Assembly: GCA_011523425.1 (NCBI GenBank)
Contig: WTGU01000146.1
Span: 124,001 to 188,000, forward strand
DNA length: 64,000 nucleotides
Direction of reading: 5' to 3'
Source: Alphaproteobacteria bacterium
GTDB lineage: Bacteria; Pseudomonadota; Alphaproteobacteria; UBA828
This document shows positions 55,053-62,078 of the stretch, piece by piece. The notes below the pieces were generated by a model, which saw nothing but the letters and a program-made list of their open reading frames with translations, was not told where the DNA came from and searched no databases. The position numbers were made by a program, and so were the translations under genes. Numbering within the stretch: the stretch's first letter is position 1; every line of letters begins with the position of its first letter.

Positions 55053-56195
55053 ATGCTGTCAAAAGCGTTTTCCGAAACATCGGGTCTTCTTGGCGAAGAT
55101 AGACTTCGCCAGGTGATCGATACTGCGCTCGATGGCATGGTCGTGATCGATTCATCGGGTACGGTGTTGCTGTATAACGCCGCGTGCGAACGACTGTTCG
55201 GATATTCGGCACAAGAAGTTCTCGGCAAGAATGTCAAACTTCTCATGCCCCACCCCGATCGCCGGAATCACGACACCTACATAGAGAATTATCTGCGGTC
55301 AGGTGAGGCAAAGATCATCGGAATCGGCCGTGACGTGAGCGGCCGGCGCAAGGACGGTTCGACGGTTCCGATCCGCTTGTCGGTGGGCGAGCTGCGCGAT
55401 AGCGACGACGCGCCCCTCTTCATCGGGACACTTCACGACCTTACCGAGGTGCAGCGAGCCCGCGAGAAAATCGAGGAGCTGCAGTCGGAGCTGTTGCTGG
55501 TATCGCGCGCAAGCGCCGTTGGAGAAATGGGATCCACCCTGGCGCACGAGCTGACCCAGCCTCTTTCGGCAGCCATGGGATTTGTCGAAGCCAGCGCCGC
55601 ACTGATCGATCAAGGCGACGGCGGGGAGCGCGCCCGGATTCGCGCGCTCATGGACCAAGCCGTCGCCCAGACACGGCGAGCGGGCGACGTGCTCAGACGG
55701 CTGCTCGAGTTTGCGAGCAGGGGGGATACGGAGCGATCCGTGTTGGACATCAATACCGTGGTGAGGGAGATTTGCGAGCTGACGATGCTGGGAACCGCGA
55801 GCGAGAGCATCGACTTGAAGATGAGCCTTGCCGACGATCTTCCCTCCGTGCTTATCGATCACGTTCAGATCCAGCAAGTGATCCATAATCTGGTGCGCAA
55901 TAGTATCGATGCGTTGGACGACAGCGACGGCGGAACTGTGTTCGTCACGACCGTGGCCAGAGGAGATATGGTTGAGGTGAGCGTCGGAGATGACGGACCC
56001 GGGTTCCCTGCGGCGATCCGGGAGACTCTGTTCGAACCGTTCGTTTCGACCAAGCTCGACGGTATCGGAATCGGTCTGAGTATCTGCCGCTCGATCATCG
56101 ATGCGCATGGCGGCAGGATCGTTGTAGACGACAAGCCGAAAGGCGGCGCACGAATTAGCTTTACGGTCCCGGTCTTCGAAGAGTCGAAATACTGA
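55053..56195 (+). CDS. fixL: FixL-type haem PAS oxygen-sensor histidine kinase
   Basis: 380 residues with one PAS domain (about 15-130) and a kinase domain (about 160-375); no membrane segments, so it is a cytoplasmic form. In the PAS domain His73 (RNHDTY) is the expected proximal haem ligand and Arg93 (IGIGRDVSG) the ligand-sensing arginine, with the same 20-residue spacing as His200 and Arg220 of the known FixL. The kinase has the H-box STLAHELTQPL, N-box NLVRNSIDALD and G-boxes DDGPGFP and GIGIGLSI. fixJ starts 1 bp after the stop. The start is ATG 55053, with a weak ribosome-binding site. Confidence 0.92.
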   Translation: MLSKAFSETSGLLGEDRLRQVIDTALDGMVVIDSSGTVLLYNAACERLFGYSAQEVLGKNVKLLMPHPDRRNHDTYIENYLRSGEAKIIGIGRDVSGRRKDGSTVPIRLSVGELRDSDDAPLFIGTLHDLTEVQRAREKIEELQSELLLVSRASAVGEMGSTLAHELTQPLSAAMGFVEASAALIDQGDGGERARIRALMDQAVAQTRRAGDVLRRLLEFASRGDTERSVLDINTVVREICELTMLGTASESIDLKMSLADDLPSVLIDHVQIQQVIHNLVRNSIDALDDSDGGTVFVTTVARGDMVEVSVGDDGPGFPAAIRETLFEPFVSTKLDGIGIGLSICRSIIDAHGGRIVVDDKPKGGARISFTVPVFEESKY

Positions 56196-56196
56196 C

Positions 56197-56844
56197 GTGT
56201 CTGGCGAGCTTATTATTGTCGTCGATGATGATGACGCCGTTCGTGCGTCGCTTGAGGCACTGCTCGAAACGGCAGGTTATCGGACCAGCGGGTTCGAGTC
56301 GGGAACCGCGTTCCTCGACTCCCTGGATACCGTTCTTGGTTCATGCGTCCTGTTGGACGTCAAGATGCCGGACCTGGACGGGTTGGAGGTCCAGCGGCGC
56401 GTGAGAGATCGCGGTGTGATACTGCCGATCATCATCGTCACCGGTCACGGCGACATAACCATGGCGGTGCAGGCGATGCGTGCCGGCGCGATCGATTTCA
56501 TCGAGAAGCCGGTGAGCCGGGACCGCCTGCTGGAGAGCGTTGCGCGGGCCGTCGAACTTGGCGGGGACGCTCAGCGCGACCGGCTCGAGAAGGTCGAAAT
56601 CGGTGACCGAATCGGTGAGTTGACCCTGCGCGAACGGCAGGTGTTCGAACAGCTCGTGATGGGCCGCTCCAACAAGATTGCCGCGTACGAGTTGGGAATC
56701 AGCGGCCGCACCGTCGAGGTATATCGCCGGAACGTCATGAAGAAGATGGGGGCCGACAGCCTGTCCCACCTGGTGAGGATGGCGCTCGTTGCCGGCGTCG
56801 ACCCGCTTGGCGACACGTCCCCTTCGGCACGCGGCGCGACGTAG
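56197..56844 (+). CDS. fixJ: FixJ-type two-component response regulator
   Basis: 215 residues from a GTG. The receiver domain has acidic Asp10 and Asp11, phosphoacceptor Asp54 (VLLDVKMPD) and Lys104 (FIEKPVS). The linker leads to a LuxR-type helix-turn-helix, LTLRERQVFEQLVMGRSNKIAAYELGISGRTVEVYRRNVMKK. As in rhizobia it should be phosphorylated by FixL when oxygen falls, and activate a fixK or fnr gene. It is 1 bp from fixL; the Fnr-like gene lies 318 bp downstream. Confidence 0.92.
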   Translation: MSGELIIVVDDDDAVRASLEALLETAGYRTSGFESGTAFLDSLDTVLGSCVLLDVKMPDLDGLEVQRRVRDRGVILPIIIVTGHGDITMAVQAMRAGAIDFIEKPVSRDRLLESVARAVELGGDAQRDRLEKVEIGDRIGELTLRERQVFEQLVMGRSNKIAAYELGISGRTVEVYRRNVMKKMGADSLSHLVRMALVAGVDPLGDTSPSARGAT

Positions 56845-57076
56845 AGTTTCCGGTAGTCTCCCTTCCCGCACCGGGTGCCGTTGACGCGCGCCCGCATGGG
56901 GGCTTGCGGTCCGCGAGCCCGATCCACGCGGGCAGGAGTGGCTCCGTCCAGACCGCCGGCCATGGTTTCGGCGGTGAGGCGTCGATCGTCCTGTTCGAAG
57001 AGGTCCCCCCCCCGGAGCCGGCGGACGACCCACGGTGGCATACCCGCCGATTGGACGTGTGCGGCGTTAGGCAGTT

Positions 57077-57084
57077 GTACGTAA
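57077..57084 (+). promoter_or_regulatory. Possible FixJ binding site upstream of the Fnr-like gene
   Basis: GTACGTAA at this place is one base from the GTAMGTAG core described for FixJ in Sinorhizobium, and is flanked by A/T-richer sequence (TTGTACGTAAGC). It lies 79 bp before the ATG of the Fnr-like gene, within the 318-bp spacer after fixJ. The distance is right for activation. The rest of the spacer shows a run of nine C and no gene. Confidence 0.35.
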
Positions 57085-57162
57085 GCACAAGTCCTGAGGT
57101 GCATCTCGTTCGCCCGGCACCTAAGACTATGACAACGGCTCTGCGAGGATCGGGAGGGGTGG

Positions 57163-58005
57163 ATGACGGTTGCACCCTCTCAAGATCGATCGGGTCCAGG
57201 CCACGCGCGCAGTCCGGGGGCGTGCCTTGCTCGCAGGGACCACTGCTGCGACGGACCACGGGCGCCTTGGTGTGAGGGTTGCCGTGTAAGGTCGCTGTCG
57301 CCATGCGCGACGCAATCGGAAGCCAATGGTCCCACGGCTCCTTCGTTTTGGGTTTCGGAGAGCATCGTTGCCGCCGGCGACGACATCGTCGAACAAAGCG
57401 AGCCCTGCGGCGACTTCCACGTCATCATCGACGGGTGGGCCGTTCAGTACGAGCTGCTCGAAGACGGCAGCCGGCAGATACTCGATTTCCTGCCGGCAGG
57501 TTCGATTGTCGGACTTCAACCGGACGGAGATGCACCGCCGGCCTATTTCGTCCAGGCGTTGACCACCGTCCGGGTGTGCAGTTTTTCGATGGCAGGCTTC
57601 CTCCGCGCCGCGCGGTCGAATTCGGCGCTTGCGCTGTGGCTGGCCGCTGCCGCCAGCCGGTCCCATTGCCGGTCGCTGCATCGTCTGACGCTGCTCGGTC
57701 GCATGACCGCCAAAAAGCGCGTTGCTGCGCTGCTTCTCGAACTCTATCGGCAGGGTCGGCCGTGGTCGGCCTCACAGCGGGAAGACGAGATTTCATTGCC
57801 GATGACGCAGGAGCACATCGGCGACGCCCTCGGACTCACCAGCATTCATGTCAATCGCATGCTGCGCGAGCTTCGTGAGGAGGGTCTTCTGGTACTGAAA
57901 CATGGGGTATTGAGAATTCTCGATCGCGAGCGCCTGGCTGAGACCGCCGGCTGGGACGATCACCAACCGGCGAGCCGGCCAACCTCACACCGCGTCGGCG
58001 GCTGA
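57163..58005 (+). CDS. Crp/Fnr-family regulator with candidate Fe-S cysteines (FnrN/FixK type)
   Basis: 280 residues. The N-terminal cluster Cys37-x2-Cys40-x7-Cys48 (WCEGCRVRSLSPC) has the spacing of rhizobial FnrN/FixK, and Cys139 (VRVCSF) falls where E. coli Fnr has Cys122. All four [4Fe-4S] ligands may thus be present. The cyclic-nucleotide-like beta-roll spans about 60-160 and the C-terminal winged helix is MTQEHIGDALGLTSIHVNRMLREL. The recognition helix lacks the Glu and Ser of classical Fnr (ExxSR), so site preference may differ. The ATG at 57163 has GGGAGG upstream. A direct oxygen sensor under FixLJ control is the likely role. Confidence 0.85.
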   Translation: MTVAPSQDRSGPGHARSPGACLARRDHCCDGPRAPWCEGCRVRSLSPCATQSEANGPTAPSFWVSESIVAAGDDIVEQSEPCGDFHVIIDGWAVQYELLEDGSRQILDFLPAGSIVGLQPDGDAPPAYFVQALTTVRVCSFSMAGFLRAARSNSALALWLAAAASRSHCRSLHRLTLLGRMTAKKRVAALLLELYRQGRPWSASQREDEISLPMTQEHIGDALGLTSIHVNRMLRELREEGLLVLKHGVLRILDRERLAETAGWDDHQPASRPTSHRVGG

Positions 58006-58331
58006 GTCGCCGCAAGCGCTTCAACGATCCTATTTCGTCGACAACGTGCGTGACATCGCCGGGCGCACCGTCAACCCGCCCGACCGTCCGGTCGTCCTCC
58101 GTGTCGGGGAGGAGAACCAGGTCCACCCGTTCGACCGCATCCGAGCGATGCGTACGGTGGGCGTTCGCGCGCTACGCTGAGTCAAAGCACGCGAGCAGAC
58201 GAAAAGACTAATCCAGATCAATTCTCCCTAAGAGGCGGCGTGTCACTTCCCGTTTCCGTCTGATCCGCCTGTCCGGATTTCGACGAGGTCTTGCCGGACA
58301 GCGCCGGTCACCCGGATGAAAGGAGGCTCGC
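58006..58331. other. 326-bp spacer and leader of the first duplicated gene
   Basis: The left part has a 50-codon open frame (reading YFVDNVRDIAGRTVN) with no usable start, ending near 58,180; it might be a gene remnant. The right part, from about 58,196, is the first copy of a leader repeated at 58,799, carrying the Fnr-like box. Confidence 0.5.
58208..58221 (+). promoter_or_regulatory. Fnr/FixK-like box, copy 1
   Basis: CTAATCCAGATCAA matches the anaerobox TTGAT-N4-ATCAA at 8 of 10 fixed positions, with one perfect half-site. It is 110 bp before the ATG of the small membrane protein and 203 bp after the Fnr-like gene. The same 16 bases occur at the head of the second leader copy, which supports a selected function. 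Confidence 0.5.
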
Positions 58332-58814
58332 ATGAGCGAAACCATCTCGCTTACACGCCTTCGCTACCCACCGAGGAACCTCTTGGGTCGGACCGGCGAG
58401 TATGAGATGTGGGCGCTGGCGCGCCGGTTTGCGACGGTTCTGCTCGCCCTGATCTGGTTGCCGGCCGGGTTCTGCGTCCTCTCCGCGGCGACCGGCGACC
58501 TGCGCTGGCCAGGGACTGCCGATACGTGGATTTCTCTTGCCGTGTTGGCAGCAGGGGGGCTGCCGCTCGCCGCGGCCTGCCATGGGCTGGCGCTGAACCG
58601 GTATTCCGGCGCCGCGTGGGCGGCCGGCACCCTGCTTGGGGCTCCCCTGCTGCCGCTCTCGCTCGCGGCCGGGTGGCACGAGGCGGCTGAAGTCGCGGTT
58701 TGCGCGGCAGTGGCGAGCGTGCCGGTGTGGATTGCAGCGCTCTGGCTGGGGCGCCGGACACGGACCGGTCCCCGGCGGCGAGCGTCCGGTGGCGCCTACA
58801 GACGAACGGACTAA
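58332..58814 (+). CDS. Small membrane protein, first of a tandem related pair
   Basis: 160 residues. The N-terminal 30 residues are soluble (TISLTRLRYPPRNLLGRTGEY). Four hydrophobic segments follow, beginning with FATVLLALIWLPAGFCVLSAA, then LAVLAAGGLPLAAACHGLAL, GTLLGAPLLPLSLAAG and VAVCAAVASVPVWIAALWLG. The C-terminus is arginine-rich. AAAGGAGGC precedes the ATG. I do not recognise a family. The first 48 residues recur in the next gene, and the leaders of the two genes are duplicated, so an oxygen-linked role under the Fnr-like regulator is a reasonable guess. Confidence 0.7.
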   Translation: MSETISLTRLRYPPRNLLGRTGEYEMWALARRFATVLLALIWLPAGFCVLSAATGDLRWPGTADTWISLAVLAAGGLPLAAACHGLALNRYSGAAWAAGTLLGAPLLPLSLAAGWHEAAEVAVCAAVASVPVWIAALWLGRRTRTGPRRRASGGAYRRTD

Positions 58815-58824
58815 TCCAGATCAA
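58811..58824 (+). promoter_or_regulatory. Fnr/FixK-like box, copy 2
   Basis: CTAATCCAGATCAA is identical to copy 1. It begins one base before the stop codon of the first membrane-protein gene, which is TAA within the box. The second gene starts about 140 bp downstream (ATG 58966 by homology). Flanking bases (AAGAGGCG, TTCCCG) are also shared. Confidence 0.5.
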
Positions 58825-58909
58825 TTGTCCCGAAGAGGCGACGTGGCAATTCCCGTCTCCGGCACATTCACCTGTCCGGATCGAGCTGGTCGACGAGACG
58901 GGGATATCG

Positions 58910-59596
58910 ATGAGCTACAGAGACGAGGTCCACAGCGAAGGCCAACCGGACGGGAGGAGTCGCGCATGGGCGGCACGGTCTCGCTTGCACGCGTTCGCTG
59001 CCCGCCGAGGAATCTTCCGGGGGTGGACCGGCGAGAATGGTCTACGGGTGCCGGCGCGCCGCCTCGTGATGGTCCTGTTCGCCGTGATCTGGTTGCCGGC
59101 CGGGGTCTACGTCTCTCTTGCATACGTAGACGTCCGGTATGTGCCGCCGGTGTTCTTCGACGAGCTGGAGGAATCCGGCCGTGAAGCGACGGCACACGCC
59201 GAGAAAACGCTCGATGGGCGCGTGCCGGACGGCAGTGTGAAATTCGAGTGGCGACACGCGCCGGGCGACATCGATGACGTCATCGCTCTCGACGCACGCT
59301 GCCCTGACCTCACTGTCGTCAGCCAGTCGGCTCTGGCCGTGCCCTACGTCGGCGTGCGCCAGACGTCGGGCACGTACGTCACGACCGTATGGAGTGTAGG
59401 CCACGATGAGCACGGTGCTATCCTTTGCCCGGATTCGTCGCGTCATGCGGCGCGCCGAGGCGTTCGTGCGGAAGCGGCAGGAACGACGGTTAGCAACGTC
59501 GATCTCGGCGATGTCCTTCTGTCGCAAGTCCTGGATACCGAGAGCGATCTCCTCGCGGTGAGCGCCCGTGGACACACGCACGCGCAGGAGAATTGA
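58910..59596 (+). CDS. Frame-shifted relative of the preceding membrane protein, with a different C-terminus
   Basis: From ATG 58910 an open frame of 228 residues exists. However, the true N-terminus by homology begins at ATG 58966 in another frame: GGTVSLARVRCPPRNLPG parallels ETISLTRLRYPPRNLLG of the first gene. The match then continues in this frame with GENGLRVPARRLVMVLFAVIWLPAG. One extra base in the G5 run at 59019-59023 separates them. It is a sequencing error, a broken gene, or a natural frameshift. After the single membrane segment the last 165 residues (PPVFFDELEESGRE onwards) are unrelated to the first gene and look extracytoplasmic. GGGAGGAG precedes ATG 58966. Function unknown. 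Confidence 0.6.
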   Translation: MSYRDEVHSEGQPDGRSRAWAARSRLHAFAARRGIFRGWTGENGLRVPARRLVMVLFAVIWLPAGVYVSLAYVDVRYVPPVFFDELEESGREATAHAEKTLDGRVPDGSVKFEWRHAPGDIDDVIALDARCPDLTVVSQSALAVPYVGVRQTSGTYVTTVWSVGHDEHGAILCPDSSRHAARRGVRAEAAGTTVSNVDLGDVLLSQVLDTESDLLAVSARGHTHAQEN

Positions 59597-59678
59597 TCAT
59601 GGGTGCCGTTCGGCTGGAGGGTTTGACGCCGATCGGCACCGTAGCCAATTGAGTTAGGTGGGATTCTGGAGGTTCACC

Positions 59679-62078
59679 ATGACGACCCGTGCAAAGCACT
59701 CTTATTCATTGTCCGTGATGGCCCTGCTGGCGCTTTTCGCTGCGCTCGGCCTGAGCGCCTGCGATGACGGCGATCAGTCCGGGCCGGCGCCGCAGACAGA
59801 AGCGACGTCAGCGTTCAACTGGACGCACGAGGCGGTGCGGGTGCAGGGCGCCCACGACCGGGTGCGGGACCGACACGGCGCGGACGTGCTGCCGGGGGAT
59901 GGCGTGCGGGTCGGGATCATCGACAGCGGGATCGATCTCGGGCACTGGGCGTTCGACCCGGACCGGGTCACGGAGGTGAGCCTCGACCGCGACGACGCGA
60001 CGGAGAGCGGGTTCGTCATCAGCCACGGCACGGCGGTGGCGAGCGTGATTGCGGCGCAGGAGGGCACCCGGCCTCGCGAGTTCGAGGACATCGGCGTGAG
60101 GGGCGTGGCGCCGGGTGTGGAGCTGACGGTGTTCGCGATCGCCGACCGGGGGCCGGAGGGGCCCACGCAAGACGAGGAGCTGGGGTGGTTCGGCCGGGCG
60201 CTGGCGCCGGAGACGGGCCTGGACATCCTGAACATCAGCTTCGGGACCAGCTACGACCTGATCTCGGACTACCCGGACGAGGCGGCCGTGCGGGGCCGCT
60301 ACGGCCGCCTGATCGACCTGATGGCGCAAGGCGGCAAGGAGGAGCCGTCCCTGATCGTCTTCGCGGCAGGCAACGAGAACGGTCCGTGCGATGCGGCGCT
60401 GGTCGCGGAGTTCGGCGATCCTTCGCGATGTGTCGCGGACCCCGACATCTCGGCGTTCTACGGGTCCCCCACCGGCCTGTTCTTCGCGGACTCGCCGGGG
60501 GTGGATGCGGCGTTGCAGGTGCACGCCGAGGACCTGCGGAGCCACGTGGTCTCGGTGGTCGCGACGCGCCCCGACCGTGCGCTGGCGTCGTTCTCGAACC
60601 GCTGCGGCATTGCCGCGCCGTGGTGCATCGCCGCGCCCGGCGTCGACGTTCCGGTGGCGTACTTCGGCCCCGAGGACCCCGCCGATCCCTACGCGACCGC
60701 TTTGGCCAGTCCCAGCCGGGGTCAGGAACGTCTTCCCGGCACCTCGTTCGCGGCGCCGCTGGTGGCCGGCGGTCTGGCGGTGATGAAGCACCGGTTCCGG
60801 GATCAGTTGTGGAATGAAGCGCTGCTCGAGCGCCTCTACCAGACCGCCGACAAGGAAGGCCCTGCGGCACCGGACGCGGTATTGGATCTGGGTGAGTGCC
60901 CGGCGCATCTGGACACGGACGGGGACTTGTCGTCGTGCGAGCTCTCGTCCACCCACGGTCAGGGGATCATGGACCTCGACGCGGCGACGATGCCCGTGGG
61001 CGAGGTGAGAGCGGTGCTGGGAAGCAGGCTCGTGCCGCACGGCATGTCCTTTGCGGGAAGCGGCTTCGGGTCGAGCGCGGCGGTCGGAGACGCGCTCGCG
61101 CTCGGTCTGGTGGATCGGGAGGTCGCACTCTTCGACACCCTGGACGCACCCTTCTGGATGGGCCTTGGCTCGCTGGTGCAGCCCGCCAGCCACGCGCGCC
61201 TCGGCTGGCGGCTGGACGCATTTCTCGCGCCCGACATGGAGACGATCGAGCAAGACGCCTGGCGCGCTGCCCATGCACCGGGCGGCGCTGCCGCCCTGCT
61301 GGAGAGACCGCTCGGGTTCACGGGTCTCAGGCTCGGCTTGAACAGCGCCAGCGGCACACAGGAGTGGACCGGCGGCCACGCGTCGCTGACGGGGACCGAC
61401 ATCGGGCGGACGTCGCTCAGCATCGGCCGGGATCCGCTGCAGGTCTCGTTCTTCACCACCGCTCACACGCCCGACGGGCGCAGGGACGCGCTGCCTTACA
61501 CCGGCGCCGTCGCCGGCTGGCAATCCGGCCCTGTCGGCCTGCGGCTAGGGGTTGTCGATGAGCCCGGGAGCGCATTGCGGCTGCACTCGCGCGGTGCCTT
61601 CGGCGGCCTCTCCTCCTCGCTCGTCTACGCCGGTTTCGGCGGGGCCACCCGGGTGGGAGCGTGGACGGTCTCGGCGGACGCCGAGACAGGCATCGCCAGC
61701 GTGGATGCTGCGCCGGGGCTCATCGCCGGAGTCTCGCCGCTCGCGACCAGCGCGTTCGGCGTCTCGGCAGAGCGGGTGTTCGAGGCGGGCGAGAGGCGCC
61801 TGCGCTTCTCGGTCTCGCAACCGCTTCGCGTCGAGGGCGGCCACGCCCGTCTCGACCTGCCCACGGGGCGCACACGCGATGGCGGGGTCACGCGGGAGGT
61901 CGTTGAGGTGCCTCTCTCGCCCTCCGGCCGCCAGGTGGACGTGTCGGCCGACTGGCGCCAGGAACTGCGCGGCGGCACCGAGCTCCGGCTCCGGTCCACT
62001 GCGTCGTTCCACCCCGGGCACAGCGCCGGCGAGGAACCGGAACTCAGTCTCCTGGCAGGCGTGCTCCGGCGCTTCTAG
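59679..62078 (+). CDS. Lipoprotein subtilase (S8) with autotransporter-like C-terminal domain
   Basis: 799 residues. A signal with lipobox LGLSAC makes Cys28 the lipid site. The S8 catalytic triad is in VGIIDSGIDLG (Asp), VISHGTAVASV (His) and LPGTSFAAPLVAGG (Ser), with the oxyanion Asn in FAAGNENG. The C-terminal half from about residue 450 is beta-rich and Gly/Ser-rich (GFTGLRLGLNSASG, AVAGWQSGPVGLRLG) and ends in LLAGVLRRF, with a terminal Phe, as outer-membrane barrels do. This combination resembles SphB1-type autotransporters of Bordetella. The ATG at 59679 has GGAGG 6 bases upstream; one at 59658 is weaker. Substrates are unknown. Confidence 0.85.
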   Translation: MTTRAKHSYSLSVMALLALFAALGLSACDDGDQSGPAPQTEATSAFNWTHEAVRVQGAHDRVRDRHGADVLPGDGVRVGIIDSGIDLGHWAFDPDRVTEVSLDRDDATESGFVISHGTAVASVIAAQEGTRPREFEDIGVRGVAPGVELTVFAIADRGPEGPTQDEELGWFGRALAPETGLDILNISFGTSYDLISDYPDEAAVRGRYGRLIDLMAQGGKEEPSLIVFAAGNENGPCDAALVAEFGDPSRCVADPDISAFYGSPTGLFFADSPGVDAALQVHAEDLRSHVVSVVATRPDRALASFSNRCGIAAPWCIAAPGVDVPVAYFGPEDPADPYATALASPSRGQERLPGTSFAAPLVAGGLAVMKHRFRDQLWNEALLERLYQTADKEGPAAPDAVLDLGECPAHLDTDGDLSSCELSSTHGQGIMDLDAATMPVGEVRAVLGSRLVPHGMSFAGSGFGSSAAVGDALALGLVDREVALFDTLDAPFWMGLGSLVQPASHARLGWRLDAFLAPDMETIEQDAWRAAHAPGGAAALLERPLGFTGLRLGLNSASGTQEWTGGHASLTGTDIGRTSLSIGRDPLQVSFFTTAHTPDGRRDALPYTGAVAGWQSGPVGLRLGVVDEPGSALRLHSRGAFGGLSSSLVYAGFGGATRVGAWTVSADAETGIASVDAAPGLIAGVSPLATSAFGVSAERVFEAGERRLRFSVSQPLRVEGGHARLDLPTGRTRDGGVTREVVEVPLSPSGRQVDVSADWRQELRGGTELRLRSTASFHPGHSAGEEPELSLLAGVLRRF

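Follow-up and report, generated by a model that had tools for sequence, protein, structure and literature searches.

The subject of this study is an oxygen-signalling locus in an alphaproteobacterial draft genome of 3.62 Mb (G000), contained in a 64-kb stretch of contig C148 (positions 124001-188000) that is called the window here and in whose coordinates all window features are given. On the forward strand, the locus carries genes for a haem-type sensor kinase (fixL, 55053-56195), its response regulator (fixJ, 56197-56844) and a Fnr-like regulator of the Crp/Fnr family (57163-58005), followed by a repeated leader, a small gene termed mem1 and a longer, second open reading frame (ORF). The three regulatory genes, and the FixL residues H73 and R93, were already recognized in the original prediction, which went on to regard the two related genes behind them as a dedicated output module formed by duplication. 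The oxygen-signalling set and the tandem duplication stand, while the output module is not supported, in view of a pseudogene, a box placed on a stop codon, the recognition helix of the regulator and the relatives of the genes concerned. We consider it reasonably probable that the block is a cascade from FixLJ to the Fnr-like protein with inert duplication debris on its 3' side. Overall, we see in it a FixLJ-FixK-like cascade that departs modestly from the known type and lies next to gene debris.

The identities of these genes are read from their sequences. FixL is a single-PAS kinase of 380 amino acids with PAS and HATPase_c domains, in whose PAS domain H73 and R93 correspond by alignment to the haem His and Arg of Bradyrhizobium FixL (PDB 1dp6), both being invariant in a 61% identical orthologue of G003; haem binding by the window FixL is accordingly predicted from these residues. 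Its kinase core is present, with HATPase_c scoring 88 bits, HisKA 26.3 bits (cut-off 26.9) and a phospho-acceptor His motif LAHELTQPL. FixJ, a protein of 215 amino acids with a GTG start, possesses both the receiver domain (Response_reg) and the LuxR-type helix-turn-helix (HTH; GerE) and scores 245 bits with the FixJ model PRK09390, the cut-off of which is 255.

A canonical fixL-fixJ-fixK cluster, common to most of the genus, is found elsewhere in the same genome (contig C155; locus L089, 8202-11181), and the window FixL belongs to a clade separate from the FixL of C155. Its nearest relatives are found in gammaproteobacterial metagenome-assembled genomes (MAGs; 66-70% identity), and the window FixJ is 67-70% identical to gammaproteobacterial orthologues. 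Among the seven congeneric genomes searched, only G003, a MAG recorded under Rhodospirillales, has an orthologue of the window FixL. In terms of sequence, the window FixLJ is a divergent second pair beside the canonical fixLJ-fixK and is newly described here. Because the branching order inside the window-FixL clade is not firmly resolved, horizontal acquisition of this pair is likely but falls short of proof. The Fnr-like gene, the leader and mem1 are absent from all of the orthologous FixLJ loci.

What appears to connect the pair to the Fnr-like gene, which adjoins fixLJ, is a conserved FixJ-like element (GGCAGTTGTACGTAAGCACAAG, 57067-57090) located 5' of that gene, where binding of FixJ is putative. 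Variants of CGTAYTTGTACGTAGGTAA are present about 85-115 bp 3' of fixJ in seven gammaproteobacterial fixLJ loci, and the window has GGCAGTTGTACGTAAGCAC at the aligned position, inside 57067-57090. The similarity of the promoter region extends to the ribosome-binding-site-like stretch and the ATG of the fnr-like gene. Genome-wide, the window element is the best match, with one mismatch, and three others have two mismatches; TTGTACGTA is found once in the 64-kb window. In the gammaproteobacterial loci, the genes that follow the element are unrelated. A control footprint 5' of the canonical fixK recovered a FixJ-type palindrome in seven genomes, this one included, and the fixJ-fixK gap of C155 carries the FixJ palindrome GTACGGGGAATCCCGTACGCAA, which is conserved across the genus.

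The Fnr-like protein of 280 amino acids contains the cysteines C37-x2-C40-x7-C48 and C139, with the spacing C-x2-C-x7-C of FnrN (PMC7713065), and may thus be predicted to hold an Fe-S cluster. Its top NCBIfam match is FnrL, at 70 bits against a cut-off of 300. The recognition helix reads LTSIHVNRML, and when LTSIHVNR is compared with LTVETISR the Arg alone is retained. Glu209 and Ser212 of the recognition helix, together with Arg213, read TTGAT (PMC4505428), and the helix alignment reveals no equivalents of Glu209 and Ser212 in the Fnr-like protein. As the helix is I-H-V-N-R rather than E-T-x-S-R, the target of this protein is predicted to differ from TTGAT-N4-ATCAA. Relatives with a similar helix, found in G009, G012 and G025, lack the N-terminal cysteines. 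The FixK of C155 has the helix E-T-V-S-R, with the Glu/Ser/Arg triad; the Fnr-like protein has neither that helix nor the cysteine-free N-terminus expected of a FixK. These two proteins are the only ones above the cut-off in a genome-wide Pfam HTH_Crp_2 search.

Both the binding of FixJ and the direction of the cascade are what we infer from this arrangement. Loss of oxygen would activate FixL, and phosphorylated FixJ would act at 57067-57090, between fixJ and the fnr-like gene, on a promoter that depends on it, and would so raise the level of the Fnr-like protein (encoded from 57163). Given its FnrN-type cysteines, the Fnr-like protein may add a second, Fe-S-based oxygen check, possibly requiring low oxygen itself via the cluster before it would act on other sites; the genes immediately 3' of it are not its evident targets. 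A more far-reaching version proposes two oxygen sensors in series, in which an Fe-S Fnr-type regulator whose DNA specificity is new (I-H-V-N-R) took over the FixJ promoter of a horizontally acquired FixL/FixJ, forming an oxygen circuit insulated from the canonical FixLJ-FixK. We put it forward tentatively and hold it to be rather unlikely.

The region 3' of the regulator, 58010-59650, is by its sequence a rearranged, partly decayed zone holding one intact small gene. Two related genes had been thought to follow the regulator directly, but a gap of about 330 bp with a transposase fragment lies between, and of the two genes mem1 alone is intact. The fragment, at 58016-58177, shares 46-49% identity with a section of open frames of 375-377 amino acids in G002, G006 and G007, which are HTH + DDE_3 transposases; we take this remnant to be of the IS630 type. 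Next to it, leader copy A (58196-58278) and leader copy B (58799-58881) align over 83 bp without gaps at 84% identity, and the repeat resumes past a 32-bp insertion in the 5' coding region (58385-58478 versus 59020-59113, 79%). The duplication noted originally is therefore real, while its length, put at about 55 bp, is greater and continues to about 59113. The gene mem1 (58332-58814) encodes a small hydrophobic protein of 160 amino acids with poor coding bias. Copy B starts within mem1, the last codons and the stop codon TAA (58812-58814) of which lie inside it. The leader is not found anywhere else in the genus.

The second ORF spans 58700-59596. At its N-terminus, it repeats the 5' portion of mem1 incompletely (58965-59113), with a +1 frameshift near 59020, and its C-terminal half aligns with tandem universal stress proteins (Usp), and its homologues in relatives are Usp proteins of about 278 amino acids. 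Compared with these homologues, the decayed Usp remnant (PF00582, 59102-59652) misses the strands of the N-terminal half-domain and has lost about 22-26 amino acids at each of two internal places, and the nucleotide-binding part near the C-terminus, ELIMGAVRLEGLTPIGTVAN, can be read only in a different frame, at about 59587-59649. With that segment out of frame and the two deletions, the second ORF failed the test for an intact Usp. The alignments make it a chimeric pseudogene, in which a partial mem1 copy is fused to a Usp remnant; a tandem partial duplication of the leader and the 5' end of mem1 would have run into a usp gene to create it. Neither mem1 nor the second ORF matched anything above the cut-off in Pfam or NCBIfam. 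Immediately 3' of the pseudogene, 59658-62078 encodes a subtilase (PF00082), the long C-terminal part of which resembles an autotransporter barrel. The GC content is 0.59-0.66 over the block at 54.5-58.5 kb versus 0.68-0.73 in its flanks.

Both leaders contain a Fnr-type box. An exact genome search bore out that the identical bases CTAATCCAGATCAATT, an 8/10 match to TTGAT-N4-ATCAA, occur in both, and these are the only two occurrences in the genome (58208 and 58811). Box A (CTAATCCAGATCAA) covers 58208-58221, and box B covers 58811-58824 and overlaps the mem1 stop codon TAA. With its spacer, the reverse complement, TTGATCTGGATTAG, matches TTGATCTGGATCAA at 12 of 14 positions. When two half-sites (TTGAY / RTCAA) were demanded, the boxes failed at both positions, one half being CTAAT. 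The longest identical run between the leaders is 18 bp, with the box inside, and a run of at least 18 bp is expected at 84% identity with a P of about 0.41, for which reason box identity was rejected as a sign of selection. Since copy B and box B share one duplicated segment with the end of mem1, the box copies stem from one event and are not two independent sites; they are counted as one site, moderately unusual for a 300-bp gap. Thus, the boxes were probably copied with the duplicated segment rather than being a paired output signal, and they are presumably inert. No sigma-70-like promoter was found 3' of the boxes.

Genome-wide pattern searches detected, besides these two, about 36 further sites with at most two mismatches to TTGATCTGGATCAA, and the 31 places examined in sequence are mostly intragenic. 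A perfect TTGAY-N4-RTCAA is found at six places in the genome, one of them 5' of a NosR-like gene identified by reading its sequence. The window itself contains 14 sites with at most two mismatches versus 5.2 expected; this excess was set aside, as the sites are scattered over 64 kb and two of them are the duplicate. One half of leader A (TAGGGAGAATT) resembles the genus fixK palindrome, and the leaders were therefore also considered as FixJ sites; this was rejected because the half ranks 53rd in the window by matrix.

Each of the seven congeneric genomes has relatives of mem1, and almost none are found beyond the genus. In these genomes, no relative adjoins fixLJ, the Fnr-like gene or Usp, and none of 11 has a box with at most two mismatches within 300 bp upstream; both the expected co-occurrence of the two membrane proteins with fixLJ/fnr in other alphaproteobacteria, as far as the congeneric genomes available extend, and the expected conservation of the box failed to appear. 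The Usp gene of the G003 locus and the usp gene on contig C76 of this genome were rejected as box carriers, no box being found within 300 bp of either. Comparison of mem1 with plasmids gave no match. There are several mem1-family copies within one genome. In G001-G006 (L043-L048), a mem1-family protein is encoded between a c-type cytochrome and a major facilitator superfamily transporter, an arrangement conserved across the genus, and a copper-ATPase-like gene accompanied by a MerR-type regulator lies next to it. Other copies, in G007 and G001 (L040, L042, L049-L052), have island-like surroundings that include AlkB-, SSB- and DprA-like genes.

Several observations weigh against a FixLJ-to-Fnr-like cascade followed by inert debris. 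The core of the FixJ-like element, GTACGTA, resembles the FixJ class GTAMGTAG obtained by systematic evolution of ligands by exponential enrichment (as quoted in PMC4999443), and the match is partial; the element also differs from the palindrome at the canonical fixK promoter of this genome. Coding bias is poor over the first 60 or so codons of the fnr-like gene, which renders the Cys-bearing N-terminus less certain. The frameshifts are read from a draft assembly and could partly be sequence errors. Finally, a Fnr/FixK matrix ranks the box second-best in the window, and a half-degenerate functional site is possible.

That last point also bears on the alternative in which the canonical FixK of C155 uses the boxes and mem1, through box A, belongs weakly to its regulon. 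The FixK helix, the 12/14 match and the perfect-type box 5' of the NosR-like gene would agree with it, but one half-site lacks the G (CTAAT), the many similar sites elsewhere are mostly intragenic and no box precedes the 11 mem1 relatives or the two related usp genes. The box is possibly a weak FixK site, for which the evidence is slight and conservation lacking, and we judge this explanation unlikely. Decay of the entire block, in which the Fnr-like gene would also be non-functional after the IS630-type and duplication events and FixLJ would be on its way to loss, appears quite unlikely: the debris on the downstream side, the poor coding bias seen in both the fnr-like gene and mem1, and the presence of the window FixLJ in only one of the seven congeneric genomes fit it, but all three regulatory ORFs (FixL, FixJ and Fnr-like) have kept their full length and their domains, and the FixJ element is conserved. 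A dedicated low-oxygen output module, in which the Fnr-like protein would bind both boxes and drive a pair of related membrane proteins, is very improbable. In its favour, the boxes are real, identical and close to the full consensus, the regulator is encoded about 200 bp upstream and Fnr targets a UspA gene in Sphingopyxis (PMC7713065). Against it, the second gene is a pseudogene, box 2 lies on a stop codon, the helix lacks Glu and Ser, the promoter search was negative and the relatives offer neither co-occurrence nor box.

The FixLJ-to-Fnr-like cascade with duplication debris removes an apparent regulatory module, made of identical boxes that arose by duplication, one on a stop codon, before a pseudogene. 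The reading that replaces it is testable: a FixLJ pair, probably horizontally shared, seemingly kept its own FixJ promoter, which now precedes a different regulator. If true, it would show how an oxygen-sensing pair comes to control a different output upon moving between proteobacteria, and it would provide a natural Fnr variant that combines Fe-S-type cysteines with a different recognition helix.

Among known systems, the Usp family (PF00582) is represented by the C-terminal half of the second ORF, which aligns with tandem-Usp proteins but differs by its deletions and frameshift and by having no Pfam match of its own. The FixLJ stress cluster of G003 (contig C107; L088, 3343-13112) shares the orthologous FixL and a nearby Usp gene, whereas it has no fnr-like gene, mem1 or duplicated leader, and the window retains just a decayed Usp. 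The gene order in that cluster is usp, cation antiporter, fixL, fixJ, hsp20, ornithine carbamoyltransferase (OTCase), APH/AAA and dksA-like, and a FixJ-like palindrome of the canonical-fixK kind precedes hsp20. With the FnrN/FnrL/AadR group of Fe-S Fnr proteins, the Fnr-like protein shares C-x2-C-x7-C and the central Cys, but it differs in the conserved Glu and Ser of the helix, which it lacks. Compared with the FixLJ-FixK systems of Bradyrhizobium, Caulobacter and contig C155, the window differs by a divergent FixLJ closest to those of gammaproteobacterial MAGs and by a regulator with FnrN-type cysteines and I-H-V-N-R in place of the E-T-V-S-R of FixK, while it shares with them a FixL of the haem-PAS type, a FixJ, an adjacent Crp/Fnr-family gene and a putative FixJ-type element 5' of that gene.

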